From Clostridia bacterium (GTDB lineage: Bacteria > Bacillota > Clostridia > Oscillospirales > CAG-272), in contig JAFTPD010000006.1 of assembly GCA_017463485.1 (NCBI GenBank), positions 1-64,000 of the forward strand: 64,000 nucleotides of DNA, read 5' to 3'. The notes under the pieces were generated by a model that worked only from the letters and a program-made list of their open reading frames with translations, did no database searches and had not been told where the DNA came from. How positions within the stretch are numbered: the stretch's first letter is position 1; each line of letters begins with the position of its first letter. Of this stretch, positions 20,163-29,215 are shown one piece after another. A program made the translations under genes and the position numbers.

Positions 20163-20277
20163 ATAATATGTATTGGTATAATTATATAGTAGAATGTCGG
20201 CGAGCGGCTCTCGTCAGTCCGCGACTTAGTCGCATTTTTGTGTGGTTATACACTAAGATTATAACAAGGAGGTTGTT

Positions 20278-23200
20278 ATGACTAAACTGAAAGGCATAAA
20301 AAGGCTGTTCTCTACGGCACTCGTATTTGTGCTCTCCATAGTCATGGTGGTAAGCTCGGCGTTCCCTGCAGGCGCGCTGAATCTTACTCCTGAGATGATC
20401 GCAGGAATGAAGGACTTCGTCAGCGACTATCTTGAAAGCGGAGAAATAGAGGAAGCCAAGATCGAAGAGTACCTCAAGAACGTAATTGTTGATCTGGACG
20501 GAGAGGACGCATACGACGACCCCGATTCCGCGCTCAACCAGCTTGAGGAAAGACTTCCCAAAAATGAAAACGGAGAGCCCGACTACGGTCATATCGTAGA
20601 TGACTTCAAAAAGGATGATCAGGAATCCTTGAAGGACACCTTCCAGACCGTTATTACTGTCGTTTCCAAGGCTGAAACGGTAGACGAGATTCTGGATTTC
20701 GTTGTTGGAAAGGATGAAGAGGAGAATAAAAAGCAGGAGGCAGAGGATAGAGGAGAGGTATACGTTCCCGATAAGTTTACGGTTGAATGGTATATCGACG
20801 GCTCCGATACACCCGTGTGCGTTCAGACCGACGCTTATCTGAAAAACGACGTATTTACATATCCCGAGCTTTCTTTGCCGTCGGGTGAGTATATCGTATG
20901 GCGCAACGCGGCACTGTTCCACGGTCAGTACGAGGCTGACGGCGTGACTCCCGCTGTTACCAAGATATACGGTGAGCATCGCAACCTTGCACAGGACTTC
21001 GTTGAGATCACCAACGGTATTTCGCAGGTATCCGACGTTTATAAGGCTACTCTGTCGGAGGACGGCTCTACCGTCGTTATAGCGATAGACGCACAGAAGG
21101 CAGACTACGTTGAATTGCTGACCGGCTTCAGAGAAGAGAACTCCGCATCCTCCCTCAAGGACGACGCGCTCCATATCCTCTCTGATGCACTGACTGCGGC
21201 AATGTATGCGGGAGTTAACGATTTCTCCATCAACGGAAACCATCTGCTCAGCGTAGACAGCTACGATATCGGCGACCTTGTTGATATCCTTATCGACGGC
21301 ACGTACGAGGATCTGATAAACATTGACGGATTTATCGACCTTGTCCGCGCAGAGGATAAAACACTGTCGAGATTCATAAACATGGAGGAGTACGACGACG
21401 GCGACGACACCACACAGCTTTATAAGTTTGGCGACTATACGCTGACTATGGCGACTGACGGCGCGGTATCTACCGACGTTAACGTAATATTCACTCTGTC
21501 GGGTGACGTTACGGACATTGAGAACGTTGCAGACGTTGTGAGCGACATTCTCAGCGTCGAGCGCGACGGAAGCACATTGAAGGTTGACTTCAATCTGTCC
21601 TCGGCAAACGTTCAGGTGCTGCTCAAGAGAGCGTACTCCAATACAAATGTTCCCGAGTCTATCCGCAACCACATCGAAAAGATACAGCAGATCAATGAGT
21701 ATGGCAACCTCGAGGACTTTTACGTTGTTTCGGGTGAGATGACCGTCGGTGAAATGAAGGATCTTATCCGTAACGGCGACTACGATATTATCGGCGACAA
21801 GGTTGGCGTGGATAATCTTACTCAGAGAGAAAAGTTCCAGAAGGTGCTGGATAAGGTAATGTCCTATATCCCCGATTCGTATGACGCCAAGACCTATTAT
21901 GACGTTTACGACGGCAACGGCGGATTCTTCTTTGAGAAGACCATCACCAAGGAAATGATCCAGTCCAAGGTGGAACAGTATCTGTCGGGTAAGCAGATCA
22001 CCATCCTTGGTAAGACGATATCTCCCGAGTCTATTATCAATAAGGTCATGAACCGTATTGACAGACAGAGCGTAACGCTTGATGGCAACCTGTATATCGG
22101 CGATTATCGCGAGATAATTCTCCGCGACGCGCTTAACCCCGAGGTGGAATACGTATTCTTTGCAGAGCCCGGCATCTCGCTTGACTCGCTCGCGGCTCTC
22201 CACGGACTTACCTCCGAGGGATATCATATAACCTACACCGCGGGCGGCACGGAGATAACCGTAACACCCGCAGAGGATGCGGTTATCCTGTATAAATCGG
22301 ATGCCAATACGCATACCGTAACCTACACCGTTACTTTAACGGATAAAAATCAGGTATACGATACCTTCACCTTTACCGCTACCGTGCCATACGGAACGAG
22401 CATCAACGCTCTTGACGTTATCGGCGCGCAGAATAAGGTAATAGGTCATACCTACGTTGACGGCACTCTTGCTGGCGTTCCCGCAGACGGCATTATGCCT
22501 GACAGCGACATCAGCATCAGCGCGACCTACGATATCAACTACTACAAGGTAAGCTGGGTAGTGAATGATGTAGAGGTGGAAACCGACAGCGTGCGTCACG
22601 GCGATATTCCCGAATACAACGGCGAAGCTCCCACAAAGCCTTCGGGTGATGCGCTTAACAAGTGGGTATACGTTGGCTGGAATCCTTCCGTTGCAGCGGC
22701 TACCTCGGACGTTACCTACAACGCGGTATTTGAAAGTGTTAACCGTTTCGGTGATCCTATCGACGAAAACGTAACCGAGGACTACGTCTATGATGGCAAC
22801 GCGCTGTTGATCGACGTCAATGCCGTGGGAGGTGCTGACATTAACGGCTCCTACCACGCACTGGAGCATATTCTGACGCTGCTTGACGATTTTGACACCG
22901 CCCCCGACGTAATGATCAAGATGAATTACAGCGGAGTGCAGATAAGCTTGGATCACGACAACCTCGAAGCTATCTACGCATCCTTCGGCGGTGATCTTAC
23001 AAACGCGACCTACTCAACCGCGATGGGCGTCGTTGCAGACGGTGTTAACGAAGGCAGAAAGTTCCTGTCAGTTGAATTCAAGGATGAGAACGGCGCTATC
23101 GTTCCGATTACGGGCTTGACGGGTACTCCTCTGACAATGCCTTACGCTGACGACGGCAACCCCGAAACCTATCCTGTTCTGTATTACTATAACCCCGCAA

Positions 23201-24915
23201 CGGGCGAGAATGAGGCAGTTGATCACGAATTCGACCACGCTAATGGAATCGTAAAGATCAACACTACCCACTTCTCCACCTTCGTTATCGAGGAGGTAGT
23301 AAAAACCTACGACGTTACCGCGGGTACGGCCGAGAACGGTATAGTTGCAGTTGATGTAACAACCGCGGCAATGGGAGATACCGTAAACGTAACTCTCACC
23401 CCCGACACTCATTACGAGGTAAGCCGAGTATGGTACGTTGACGTTGACGGCGTAGAGCATACCATATCGGGTACTTCCTTCACAATGCCCTCGGGTGCTG
23501 TTACGGTATATGCTGAATTTACCAAGATCGTATACAAGGTAACGTTCTACTATGAAAACGGCAATATCTATCGTGTATTCAACGTAAATTCGGGAGAGAG
23601 ATTCTCTGACGCGGATATTCCCGACGGTCCCGATAAGCCAATGAGTGTTGATAAGGTATTTACCTTCTCGCACTGGGAGGCAGACGGAGTGGATATCGAA
23701 GGAAATCCTGTTATCACTTCAAACGTAAGCGTATATCCCAAGTATGAATCTGCGCCCCGCAAGTACACGGTAACCTTCGTTAACTGGGATGACAGCCTTA
23801 TCGAAACACAGAAAGTAGCGTACGGCTCAAGTGCTACCGAGCCCGCTGAAACCCCCACAAGACCGGACGAGGGCGGCTACACCTATACCTTTACCGGTTG
23901 GGACGTTGACTTCTCAAATATTACGGGCGACTTGACCGTAAAGGCAGAGTATGATGCCACTCCCATACCCGATACGGACACAGATACCAGCGACACCGAG
24001 CCGGGCAGCGAAAGCGAGTCCGAGTCTGAGTCCGAATCCGAGTCTGAGTCCGAATCCGAATCTGAGTCCGAATCCGAATCTGAGTCCGAATCCGAATCCG
24101 AGTCTGAGTCCGAATCCGAATCTGAGTCCGAATCCGAGTCTGAATCCGAGTCTGAATCTGAATCTGAGTCTGAGTCTGAGTCTGATACTGCACCCGTGAC
24201 CGAAACGGATACCGATACGGATATAATAGGCGGCGATACCACCGAGCCTGATGATTCCGAGACCACCACGGGAGAGGATGATGACGACGGGCTGTCAACG
24301 GGTATGATAATTCTTATCGTTATCCTTATCATTCTGCTCATCCTGCTCATCCTTATCGCTGTAGGATATCTCCTGTATATCAAGGGAATTCTCCCTGTGT
24401 TCTTCCTGTGGCTGCTGCTTGATAAGCTCTTCGGCAGAAACAAAGAAGAAGTGACTGAGGAGGTTACCGAGGAGGTAGCAGAGGAAGCACCTGTCGTTGA
24501 AAATCTCTTTATTCCCATTGGTGAAGAGATTCCCGAGGAGGAAGAGGAGATAGTTCACGTTGATCACGTTTCCGCTCAAGAGGTTGACGACATGATGACG
24601 GATAAGACCGCAGAACATATCCTTACCGTTTCGGATAAGGTAGGTGGTGCGGGCAAGCTCGGCATCATCAACGTTGGAACTCTTTCGAATACGTTCCAAG
24701 CGGACGACGTTGTAAACCTCGAGATACTCAAGGAAAAGGGTATGATCGAGGACGGCATCGGTAGACTTAAGGTGCTTGCAAGCGGAAGCATCAACAAGCC
24801 TCTCCGCGTAGAAGCAGATGCGTTCTCGCTCCAGGCTATCAAAATGATCACCCTCACGGGCGGTCAGGCTGTTAAGCTTCAAGCGGGCGGCAAGAAGAAC
24901 AGCACCGAGCAGTAA
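20278..24915 (+). CDS. Giant surface protein with Ser-Glu stalk and L15-like cytoplasmic tail
   Basis: 1,545 residues. A signal peptide (about 1-33, ending PAGA) is followed by some 1,200 extracellular residues. The first part is helical/mixed and unassigned. The later part has beta modules (about 695-770 and 1015-1240) of the InlB B-repeat kind, e.g. [10 protein letters not shown]...YTFTGWD. A stalk of 29 consecutive SE dipeptides (1244-1301) follows, then an acidic linker and a strongly hydrophobic membrane segment (about 1343-1372). The tail is cytoplasmic: an acidic repeat rich in EEVTEEV, then about 90 residues (1455-1542) strikingly like the C-terminal half of ribosomal protein L15 ([40 protein letters not shown]). 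GGAGG precedes the ATG. Ligand and role are unknown; an adhesin or sensor is inference. Confidence 0.85.
24007..24180 (+). repeat. (Ser-Glu)29 coding repeat
   Basis: 174 bases made of 29 six-base units coding SE, with TCC/TCT/AGC and GAG/GAA alternating irregularly. The degenerate units limit slippage but could still vary by recombination. Confidence 0.95.
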
Positions 24916-25019: not shown

Positions 25020-26225
25020 ATGAACTCTGCCGATAACAAATTCACACTTTCGGAGCGTGTGGATTCGCTGATAATTTTCAGAAATCTGCTGTCGGATAAA
25101 ACGGTATCTCTGCTGTGCAGACTAGACGCTGTCAATCAGTCGGGGAGCAGCCGCGCCGAGCTTATAAGCGCGTATTGCGATTTTATACGATCACTGTTTT
25201 GCAATCATCACAGCCTTGGCGCGCACGTCCTCGGATTTATCTTGGAGGACGAAAATATTTATACGGAGTACAAGCTGACGGGCAAGGGTGATGGCGACGT
25301 TCTGGAGTCCCTGCTTTGCCGCGAGCTGGAGATCCTTTCTGATATAGCGCGGCTTGACGGCTCGGTATATCGAGATGCCATCGGCGACGACAGCCTGCCG
25401 CTTTGGGGCAATTCTCCTGTTGATATCTTCAAGAATTACCGTGAGCATATCAAGCACATTCGCAGCCGCGGAACGGGAGTTTTTGCGAAATATCACATGT
25501 TTATTCTTAACGGTGAGGGAAAGCTGACACCCATTGCCAACCCCGACGGACAAGTACTGTCCGACCTCGTTGGATATGAGCGCGAGCGCGAGCGAGTGAT
25601 ACTCAATACCGAGGCGTTTCTTAACGGGATGCCAGCCAACAACGTGTTGCTTTACGGTGATGCGGGTACGGGCAAAAGCTCTACGGTAAAGGCGATAGCC
25701 AATGCCTACGCCGACAGAGGCTTGCGGCTTGTGGAGCTGAAAAAGAATCAGCTACCCTTTATCCAGCCGCTCATGGACACCCTTGCGGACAATCCGCTTA
25801 AATTTATCCTGTTTATTGACGACCTCACCTTCAGCTCGGGAGATGCGGATTTCTGCGCCCTCAAGGCTACTCTGGAGGGCGGAGTTGCGGGCAGGGGAAG
25901 CAACATTCTGATTTACGCCACCAGCAACCATCGTCACATGATAAAGGAGTTGGCGTCCGATCGCGTGGGCGACGAGATCAGCGTCAGCGACAAGCTGCAA
26001 GAGATCGTATCGCTTTCGGCACGCTTTGGACTTACGGTAACGTACAGCCGCGCCGATAAGGCACTGTATTCGGATATCGTTATACATCTGGCTCGCCGTC
26101 GCGGGATCGAAATGGACGAGCAGCAGCTTATCTCAAAGGCGGAGGCGTTTGCCCTGCGCGGAGGCGGACGAAATCCGCGAAGCGCCGTTCAGTTTATAGA
26201 TATGATTTCGGCGGGAATATATTAA
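25020..26225 (+). CDS. DUF815 family AAA ATPase
   Basis: 401 residues. A helical N-terminal region of about 185 residues is followed by an AAA core: Walker A GDAGTGKSS (about 214-222), Walker B FILFIDDL near 260, and the sensor-type stretch ATSNHRHMIKE near 303. The family is widespread in bacteria but uncharacterised. AAAGGAGG precedes the ATG. It lies between the giant surface protein and spoIIGA but is separated from both by hairpins, so co-function is not established. Confidence 0.88.
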   Translation: MNSADNKFTLSERVDSLIIFRNLLSDKTVSLLCRLDAVNQSGSSRAELISAYCDFIRSLFCNHHSLGAHVLGFILEDENIYTEYKLTGKGDGDVLESLLCRELEILSDIARLDGSVYRDAIGDDSLPLWGNSPVDIFKNYREHIKHIRSRGTGVFAKYHMFILNGEGKLTPIANPDGQVLSDLVGYERERERVILNTEAFLNGMPANNVLLYGDAGTGKSSTVKAIANAYADRGLRLVELKKNQLPFIQPLMDTLADNPLKFILFIDDLTFSSGDADFCALKATLEGGVAGRGSNILIYATSNHRHMIKELASDRVGDEISVSDKLQEIVSLSARFGLTVTYSRADKALYSDIVIHLARRRGIEMDEQQLISKAEAFALRGGGRNPRSAVQFIDMISAGIY

Positions 26226-26263
26226 AAATAAAACCGACTTGTACAAGTCGGTTTTATTTTTAA
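26222..26263. terminator. 42-bp perfect palindrome, bidirectional terminator
   Basis: A perfect palindrome centred on GTAC with core ACCGACTTGTACAAGTCGGT and flanking A/T runs. The stop codon of the DUF815 gene (26223-26225) lies inside it. Confidence 0.9.
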
Positions 26264-26317
26264 TATATTTATATGATGCGCCGTCACCAAACGACATAAA
26301 TTATTTTCTCGCCCATA

Positions 26318-26323
26318 TATAAT
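26318..26323 (+). promoter_or_regulatory. Possible -10 box of spoIIGA-sigE
   Basis: TATAAT with no good -35 box at 16-18 bases. ATGTCGTTT on the opposite strand (26289-26297) shares the TGTCG core of Spo0A boxes. Known spoIIG promoters are activated by Spo0A with non-standard spacing, so the arrangement is plausible, but the match is partial. Confidence 0.35.
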
Positions 26324-26349
26324 ATAAATGTAGGAAAGGGGGAGTGATA

Positions 26350-27201
26350 ATGGCGGAGGTATACGGCGATCTGCTGTTTTTGATAAATATGAGCATGGAT
26401 TATTTGTGCCTGCATCTGAGTGCAAAATTGCTCCACCGAAGAATAAGCGTGGGTAGACTCGTCGCGGCTGCGGCACTTGGCGGAGTGTATTCGGTTGCCG
26501 CACTGCTTTTGTCGGTATCCTCTCCCGTGGCTTTTGCGATAGATATCACAGTGTGTCTTGTGATGTGCGCGGTGGCTTTTTGGCGGCGAGGAGAGGGTAT
26601 TATACTTATTTCGGGTGTATACGTTGTGGTTTCCATGGTGCTTGGCGGAATTATGACGGCAATGTATAACCTGCTCAACAGATCGGGCGTTGCAAATCAG
26701 CTACCCGCAGGCGAGGACGGAATATCCGCGTGGATGTTTGCGATTCTTGCCGCTATTTCGGGTGTGCTGGCGTTGCACGGAGGTAACTTTTTTCGCAAGT
26801 CAACAGCGTCGCGACCTTGCAAGGTGAAGATAGAAATGTTCGGCAGGCGGATAGAGCTTGACGGTATGTGCGACAGCGGAAACCTTATGCGCGACCCTAT
26901 GGACGGCAGATTAGTGATCGCAGTGGATAAGGTGCACGTCGAATCCCTCTTGGGCAAAGACACGGTGGGGAAGCTGTTGTCATACGGGGACGTGACCGAT
27001 ATTTCGGACGAGCGGCTGACTCGCAGATTACGGCTTATCCCCGCAGGGACGGCTATGGGGAGCGGAATACTCGTGGGCATATCCCCCGACAAAATATCCG
27101 TGTGTCCCGAGGGCGGGCGCGAGCGCGAGGTAAACGCGCTGTTTGCCATTATGCAGACCAACGACGGCGCGGTGCTTGTGCCAAGTCAGCTTATGATGTA
27201 A
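26350..27201 (+). CDS. spoIIGA: Sigma-E processing peptidase SpoIIGA
   Basis: 283 residues. Five hydrophobic segments in the first 150 residues are followed by a cytoplasmic protease domain with [10 protein letters not shown]; the DSGN aspartate near residue 175 is the catalytic residue of this aspartic-protease-like family. SpoIIGA sits in the sporulation septum and removes the pro-peptide of sigma-E in response to forespore SpoIIR. It is directly followed by sigE, 17 bases away, as in Bacillus and Clostridium. ATG 26350 follows AAAGGGGG; GTG 26344 is an in-frame alternative. Confidence 0.9.
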
Positions 27202-27218
27202 TTAAAGGAGGAGAGAAT

Positions 27219-27986
27219 ATGAGCAATAAATACAGCCTGATCTTTATTATCAGGCAAAGGATATCACGGCTTATTAAAGATGCCCGCAAAAGACGTATTT
27301 TGCGTATGCGACGGCGTGCGGAGTCGGGGAGAGGAGAGATATATTATGTAAACGGCCCCGACGTACTGCCACAGCCACTCTCTCGCGAGGAGGAGGCGGC
27401 AATGATAGCCTTGCTCGACTCAGATGAGGCGGCGAGGGAACACGCGCGCGGCGTGCTTATAGAGCATAATTTGCGCCTTGTGGCGTTTATCGCGCGGAGG
27501 TTTGAAAACACGGGCGTGGGCGTAGAGGACCTGATATCCATTGGTACGCTTGGACTTATCAAGGCAATAAACACCTTTCGCGCCGACAAGAACATAAAGC
27601 TTGCCACTTATGCGTCGCGGTGTATTGAAAACGAAATACTTATGTATATCCGCAAGATAAGCGGAAAGCAGGAGCTGTCTATCGACGAGCCGCTTAGCAC
27701 TGATTGGGACGGCAACGAGCTGCTTTTGTCCGACGTGCTTGGCAGTGACGAAGAGCCGATTGGTAAGGAGCTGGAGGATGCGGAGGAGCGGCGGGCGCTG
27801 TACGCCGCGCTTGACAGCCTCGACGAGAGGGAACGGCTTATAATCGAAATGCGGTACGGTCTTGGCGGCAGACAGGAGGAGACGCAAAAGGAGGTAGCCG
27901 ACAAAATGGGCATATCTCAATCCTACATATCCCGCCTCGAAAAAAAGATAATAGCCAAGCTAAGACAGAAATTCAGCAGTGTATAG
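27219..27986 (+). CDS. sigE: RNA polymerase sporulation sigma-E factor precursor
   Basis: 255 residues. Region 2 ([30 protein letters not shown]...[10 protein letters not shown]), the [18 protein letters not shown] stretch typical of sigma-E, and region 4.2 HTH ([19 protein letters not shown]) are all present. By analogy with Bacillus, cleavage would fall in EIY|YVNG after residue 42, so the pro-sequence is long, basic and hydrophobic (27 residues in Bacillus). AAAGGAGGAG precedes ATG 27219; longer in-frame extensions run into spoIIGA and are rejected. It directs early mother-cell sporulation transcription. Confidence 0.95.
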
Positions 27987-28660: not shown

Positions 28661-29176
28661 TTATTCCTCTGCGTATAATTCGTCGTAATACCAACGGATC
28701 GGGTTTTCGTAGATGTATCGCAAATGTTCCTCGTAATCTTGTCGGTTACGGATGATATGATCATTGGAGCGGTATTGCCATATATTTATGCCGTATTCCT
28801 TGTTGCAAAATCTTTTGAATGTTGACACAAAGCGTGACGGAATGGAATTTTGCACTGTAGGGACCGGCGTCCTCGACGGTCCGTTTCCTGTGCCTTTGAT
28901 CCACAACATAATATGAATATGATTCGGCATGATCACATAACTCTCGACCGATAGGTCATCGTAAAAATCATTTAATTGATGGATATATTTATCTGCGATT
29001 TGTCCATATTGTGTTAATTCGATTTGCGGACCGTCGAGGACGCCGGTCCCTACAATACGCGCAAGGAGACATTGTCTTTCTTTCGTACATATCGTTAGGA
29101 AAACGGCTTGATTTCGATTATAGTCCGCTCCCTTCAACCGAGTGGTCTTGCGATTTTTTAGTTCGTCCATTTTCAT
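28661..29176 (-). CDS. REP-associated tyrosine transposase (RayT, IS200-like Y1/HUH)
   Basis: 171 residues from ATG 29176. HUH motif as HIHIM near residue 82 and a C-terminal catalytic-type tyrosine in NRQDYEEHLRYIYENP. RayT proteins are domesticated relatives of IS200/IS605 transposases that act on REP palindromes. Unusually, two inverted copies of a 27-bp REP-like sequence lie inside the frame, coding GTGVLDGP near residues 41-49 and GPSRTPVPT near 98-106, without breaking it. No IS ends or accessory gene are seen. A promoter's -10 box covers the upstream ATG 29188, so a start at 29176 or 29170 is favoured. Confidence 0.85.
   Translation of the reverse strand: MKMDELKNRKTTRLKGADYNRNQAVFLTICTKERQCLLARIVGTGVLDGPQIELTQYGQIADKYIHQLNDFYDDLSVESYVIMPNHIHIMLWIKGTGNGPSRTPVPTVQNSIPSRFVSTFKRFCNKEYGINIWQYRSNDHIIRNRQDYEEHLRYIYENPIRWYYDELYAEE
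28857..28883 (-). repeat. REP-like sequence inside RayT gene, copy A
   Basis: 27 bases (TGTAGGGACCGGCGTCC...) that are the exact reverse complement of 29028-29054. Same family as the sequences at 47065-47091 and 47174-47200. Confidence 0.9.
29028..29054 (+). repeat. REP-like sequence inside RayT gene, copy B
   Basis: 27 bases (GGACCGTCGAGGACGCC...CCCTACA), exact inverted partner of 28857-28883. Confidence 0.9.
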
Positions 29177-29186
29177 CACCCATTCC

Positions 29187-29215
29187 ATTATAACACAAAT
29201 CGGCAGAGAAAACAA
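29187..29215 (-). promoter_or_regulatory. Possible promoter of the RayT gene
   Basis: Minus-strand TTGTTT (29215-29210), 17 bases, TATAAT (29192-29187). It lies within a hairpin CGGCAGAGA / TCTCTGCCG (29201-29226). The start of transcription would be only a few bases before the ATG, so the transcript would be nearly leaderless. Confidence 0.4.

Follow-up and report, generated by a model that had tools for sequence, protein, structure and literature searches.

Ribosomal protein L15 (uL15, the product of rplO; TIGR01071, PF00828) is the nearest described relative of the protein tail considered here, and to our knowledge core ribosomal proteins rarely occur as movable modules of membrane proteins. 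What, then, is half of one doing at the end of a giant surface protein? The tail, encoded in the window (the whole 64,000-nucleotide stretch of clostridial DNA that was analysed), resembles the C-terminal half of L15 in both fold and sequence but lacks the N-terminal half, and has in front of it an extra folded extension and a membrane segment; its gene lies outside the ribosomal operon, and tails of this kind stand apart from rplO in a phylogenetic tree. With the stalked Gram-positive adhesins of Sdr/Clf type the window protein has in common a signal-peptide-like start, outside modules, a serine-acidic stalk and a membrane segment, but it differs in having no LPxTG sorting motif, nor a near form of one, and in having a long cytoplasmic domain past the membrane segment. 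The profiles of serine-rich adhesins match the Ser-Glu stalk of the window protein alone, far below their cut-offs. The third comparison is with the SipW/TasA/camelysin systems, whose type of signal peptidase and secreted substrate flanks the tail genes of some relatives but, by reading, not the window gene itself. In the available parts of two accounts, a review of biofilm matrices has SipW as the signal peptidase that serves TasA and TapA of B. subtilis (tapA-sipW-tasA; PMC4551309) and a study of C. perfringens describes its sipW-bsaABCRSD operon (PMC7395162); no mention of an L15-like membrane protein was found in those parts of either. Likewise, the titles and abstract openings of the open-licence literature yielded no description of an L15-tail fusion or family, and the accessible portions of PMC5898192 and PMC2672003 contain nothing on such a fusion, the name L15 being absent from those of the latter by word search.

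In certain clostridia, known mainly from gut metagenomes, the L15 half has come to form a family of its own, found as the inner tail of membrane and surface proteins. These relatives of L15, apart from rplO, sit on proteins with diverse outside domains, and in some genomes a gene overlap or fusion links them to a signal peptidase of the type that serves fibre proteins; through them, the way in which some clostridia organise very large surface proteins becomes open to test. They are also a warning that a good L15 domain match does not make a protein ribosomal, databases presumably naming such tail proteins after L15. The parts of the window gene are as follows.

20278..24915, plus strand: surface-protein gene with the L15-like tail (open reading frame of 1,545 aa; PF00828 match)
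20278..20376, plus strand: N-terminal signal-peptide-like hydrophobic segment, about residues 1-33 (reading; hydropathy of the relative L081)
23308..23529, plus strand: divergent InlB B-repeat PF18998 in the outside part, residues 1011-1084 (35.2 bits, cut-off 23.6)
24007..24183, plus strand: Ser-Glu repeat stalk, about residues 1244-1302 (reading)
24304..24378, plus strand: membrane segment, residues 1343-1367 (reading; hydropathy of L081)
24433..24549, plus strand: acidic linker, presumed to be on the cytoplasmic side (reading; charge pattern of the family)
24550..24657, plus strand: extension made of two short helices plus one strand, ahead of the L15 part (residues 1-36 of the AlphaFold2 model)
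24664..24873, plus strand: domain corresponding to the C-terminal half of L15 (PF00828), residues 1463-1532 (profile and fold matches)

The original prediction was that about 90 residues at the C-terminus of this 1,545-residue protein are L15-like, and the likeness has been borne out while the length has not. In a Pfam-A search PF00828 (Ribosomal_L27A) matches 70 residues, 1463-1532, along the whole of the profile (1-72 of 72) with 45.9 bits (E 7.6e-12), well over the cut-off of 21.5, and the folded unit of the tail begins near 24550, with an extension of some 35 residues outside the profile match. The bacterial L15 model TIGR01071 (rplO_bact) aligns at positions 72-143 of 144 only, that is with its C-terminal half, at 37.6 bits, which is below its cut-off of 77.95; its positions 1-71, the N-terminal half, find no match in the window protein, and where L15 has a basic, glycine-rich N-terminal half the window protein has the extension, the acidic linker and the membrane segment. 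L15 chains come out best in sequence searches of the PDB, whether with the single window tail (4.4e-06) or with a profile of 79 tails (1.8e-15). The AlphaFold2 model of 24550-24891 (114 residues; mean pLDDT 95.9, pTM 0.88) has the extension confidently folded (block pLDDT 93-96), and the predicted tail takes the fold of the C-terminal half of L15: Foldseek gave 19 matches with E <= 0.001, aligned over 72-89 columns at 1.2-4.9 A, the best being L15 chains, and of the 473 matches (E up to 10) every one of the best 50 is by its title a ribosome or ribosomal particle. That the tail is a homologue of the C-terminal half of L15 is thus supported by both sequence and fold, and neither of the two outcomes that had been named as refuting it, an insignificant profile match and a predicted structure lacking the fold, came about.

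Is the window gene perhaps simply the L15 gene of its genome? PF00828 matches twice in the assembly (1.74 Mb in 21 contigs, 91% complete): once in the window gene, and once on contig 19 in a 147-aa rplO, the separate rplO for which a search had been proposed. The open reading frames beside the latter we take, from their sequences, to be rpsE and secY, and the place before secY in the ribosomal operon is occupied by the 147-aa rplO and not by the window gene. Since this full-length rplO lies elsewhere in the genome, the window gene is not the ribosomal L15; its tail and the genome's own rplO are identical at 33 of 69 residues. In a tree, 48 tails (13 chosen and 35 drawn at random from 111 usable ones) and 40 rplO of the same order fall on opposite sides of one branch with an SH-aLRT of 99.9, the basis being 72 columns with 43 of 80 inner branches open, and the window being represented by L081, which is 92-93% identical to it. 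Tails could branch inside the rplO of lineages beyond the tree sample.

The window protein has company. The first set of relatives was gathered with PF00828 over 146 genomes of the window's family and with the tail over 394 genomes of its order; beside rplO, 34 stretches were taken from the matches listed (one of them, L089, is an rplO), second matches in the genomes G272, G286 and G485 being left out. Among GTDB contigs the pattern A[VI]KMIxL[TA]GG has 277 matches; 269 of them were confirmed as encoding stretches, and 80 of these were kept. The alignment called A1 was gathered without the KM motif; conservation of the pattern residues in the alignment A4, and in 80 of the tails compared below, is by construction, those having been collected with the pattern. 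The confirmed stretches come from metagenome assemblies, many naming ruminant or chicken gut samples, and are labelled mostly Clostridia, with Oscillospiraceae, Clostridiales, Eubacteriales, Firmicutes and Bacilli also represented. With a profile from A4 at E 1e-22 there is a match in 24 of the 146 genomes of the window's family and in 18 of the 81 of a second family, and among 245 genomes of the class only the window genome and two of the second family exceed 100 bits, the other matches listed being short frames of rplO size with less than 75 bits. The two family fractions and the 269 stretches rule out a single freak fusion, and the survey that had been suggested for other membrane proteins with this tail has so found a family. 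The window gene belongs to it, having the L15 half and extension behind a membrane segment and grouping apart from rplO. The family counts are not independent, because the two sets overlap in some genomes (one holds L081 and L097, another L065 and L118, and there are others) and because L106 and L110 are loci of one isolate. Viral contigs gave 42 pattern matches, none of which was confirmed.

In 66 of the 80 kept loci the open reading frame is complete, the other 14 being open at the 5' end of the stretch, and a hydrophobic, membrane-type segment precedes the tail in 64 of the 66 (the exceptions are L150 and L165). In L150 there are ambiguous bases near 2400, upstream of the called start, and the upstream frame holds a hydrophobic segment. 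The tail is nearly always terminal: in 78 of the 80 loci no more than 84 nt separate it from the stop end, and in L107 and L108 about 100 further residues lie beyond it. For 31 of the 66 complete frames the single segment is near the N-terminus, mostly followed by positive residues, and these are ambiguous because hydropathy does not separate them from signal peptides. For the window protein too the signal peptide and membrane segment were called by reading and hydropathy, and a second short hydrophobic stretch runs past its membrane segment to about 24432; a pair of hydrophobic stretches near the end occurs in some other carriers too, and for all of these the topology is on that account uncertain. 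The charge around the segments supports the cytoplasmic position that had been proposed for the tail: among 104 family proteins (9 more, with no segment, were left out) positive charge after the last membrane segment is higher than before it in 77, lower in 16 and equal in 11. What lies outside varies. PF00828 is present in all 42 proteins of one scanned set and any other Pfam family in at most 8, and in L115, L132 and L143 the membrane segments and the tail belong to one and the same frame, 2,723-2,749 aa long or longer. The window ectodomain was considered as a guide to function and dropped, since only three of the 98 family genomes carry it, and each of these has the tail as well. In a divergent group (L083-L087) the outside domain is between two membrane segments and resembles, by eye, neighbouring secreted proteins of fibre type.

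Purifying selection on the tail is strong. When the gene is compared with its relative in genome G002, the tail has a dN/dS of 0.039 (0.035 in the L15 part), a value resting on 19 synonymous and 3 nonsynonymous differences; the membrane segment has 0.040, the stalk 0.054, the linker 0.095 and the ectodomain 0.151. At three neighbouring helix positions where 40 rplO show K, E, K, the 111 tails mostly show V or I, then K, then M (L107 and L108, whose domain falls outside a 135-residue cut, being left out of this comparison and that of charge), and two alanines that follow in rplO are mostly L and T in the tails. Even in A1, gathered without the motif, 25 of the 34 rows keep KM where the 40 rplO have mostly EK, the divergent group L083-L087 not having it. 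In L15 chains of other bacteria, the same positions are K or Q, E or A, then A, and because L15 varies there the change in the tails is less sharp than when set against local rplO. Two lysines are kept on both sides, in 95% and 96% of tails and in 100% and 95% of rplO. The mean net charge of the shared half is +1.9 for the tails (n=111) and -0.2 for rplO (n=40); net charge, computed as a test of RNA binding, does not discriminate the one from the other.

At least 29 of the 80 proteins have a second cytosolic module, with the motif SFxAKLIQ, ahead of the L15 tail (L111-L115, L124-L127, L129, L131-L133, L135, L136, L140, L143, L149, L151, L156, L160, L163, L165-L167, L170 and L171, these 27 being aligned, plus L121 and L153 with longer spacing). 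It is predicted to be confidently folded in the model of L114, and DUF5655 matches it weakly in 2 of 27 (best 7e-05). A fold search with this module brought up only L15-type ribosomal matches among the best 50 listed.

The neighbours of some tail genes are suggestive. At seven of the 80 loci, from six isolates (L106, L110, L116, L123, L130, L152 and L172), the gene of a small tail protein overlaps by 4 nt the SipW-like signal-peptidase gene ahead of it; genes that are TasA/camelysin-like by profile lie downstream and a small conserved gene upstream. The gene names rest on family matches for L106, where camelysin PF12389 is over its cut-off for both substrates and the SipW-dependent signal-peptide model for one of them, the signal-peptidase models being below cut-off for both peptidases. 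In L114 a signal peptidase (TIGR02228, 81.5 bits, cut-off 51.85), the second module and the tail are fused into one protein. In L083-L087, which come from four genera of the window's family, a signal-peptidase gene is directly downstream in five of five and another upstream in four of five. Of the signal-peptidase operons with L15-tail genes, at the seven SipW-linked loci and L084-L087, several hold two peptidase genes. Of 38 cases classed as ectodomain-less, the classes being crude in that L114 (a peptidase) and L159 and L168 (with long N-terminal parts) are counted there, nine are preceded by a gene whose product, 794-2,366 aa in size (some being truncated at the 5' end), bears a membrane segment at its C-terminus. 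It is from these relatives that the SipW link is drawn: reading of the frames around the window gene shows no peptidase gene of this kind next to it, and no TIGR02228 match in its genome exceeds the cut-off. The best match there, 47.4 bits, is weak evidence of absence, because the SipW-like peptidase of L106 itself scores 39.5. For the tail genes L118, L119, L154 and L155 no secretion neighbour is evident, and in 26 chosen genomes with tails or divergent tails most of the listed TIGR02228 matches are away from known tails.

How might all this fit together? The original prediction had offered two guesses, contact with ribosomes or RNA and reuse of the fold for another partner, and with the homology, the cytoplasmic position and the separate rplO all upheld it is the second that is favoured, because the tails are split from rplO in the tree and have differing partner domains, and because some tail genes adjoin those for signal peptidases or large membrane-anchored proteins. 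Our leading explanation, held tentatively and at somewhat short of an even chance, is that the L15 half has been reused as a docking module that serves surface proteins in their export, processing or assembly. On this view a paralogue of the C-terminal half of L15 would have left the ribosome to become a cytosolic module of membrane-anchored surface proteins, docking on the inner face of the membrane and gathering partners for those tasks, in cis where, as in the window, the tail is on the surface protein itself and in trans where it is a small neighbouring membrane protein. Supporting this explanation by computation are the homology, fold, separate rplO, tree, membrane-type segment and differing partner domains, along with the purifying selection on the tail and its tail-specific residues; in a minority of loci the tail also adjoins, or is fused to, a SipW-like peptidase or a large membrane-anchored protein. 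Counted against docking are the patchy occurrence in the two clostridial families, the several tail genes with no secretion neighbour and the distance of most TIGR02228 matches from tails.

The other guess, by which the tail would contact ribosomes, their precursors or RNA and tether translation near the export site, coupling synthesis to secretion and signal-peptide removal, draws on the L15 fold itself, the two lysines conserved in tails and rplO, the mildly positive charge of the tail and the signal-peptidase and secreted-substrate genes beside some tail genes; we consider it unlikely though worth keeping in mind, given the genome's own full-length rplO, the missing N-terminal half and the replacement of K, E, K in the helix (80 of the tails being pattern-collected). 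Docking was marked down slightly and ribosome contact up slightly because that helix face is less distinct when compared with the L15 of other bacteria. Less probable again is a membrane receptor that would hold ribosomes or nascent surface proteins at the export site, so coupling the synthesis of very large surface proteins and fibre subunits to their secretion and the removal of their signal peptides. A passive plug and a signalling role are both less likely than ribosome or RNA contact. The tail as a stable cytoplasmic plug, stopping the surface protein from slipping through the membrane and needing no specific partner, would suit its position at or near the C-terminus and the variety of outside domains on its carriers, but we deem it improbable in view of the strong purifying selection, the tail-specific residues in most rows of A1 and the occurrence of the tail on small proteins with no ectodomain. 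Least probable of all is a signalling or regulatory output domain, comparable to the second, regulatory function of Bacillus subtilis SipW reportedly described by Terra in 2012; SipW-like neighbours, the signal-peptidase fusion and the second cytosolic module speak for it, but no known signalling domain stood out in the scans of the family.

Other features surround the window gene. Antisense to it, on the minus strand at 20182-22314, is a 710-aa open frame that is probably an effect of composition. Downstream, the plus-strand frames at 25020-27986 we assume to encode a DUF815-type ATPase, SpoIIGA and a sporulation sigma factor, and that at 28661-29215 on the minus strand is presumably a REP-associated (Y1-type) transposase.
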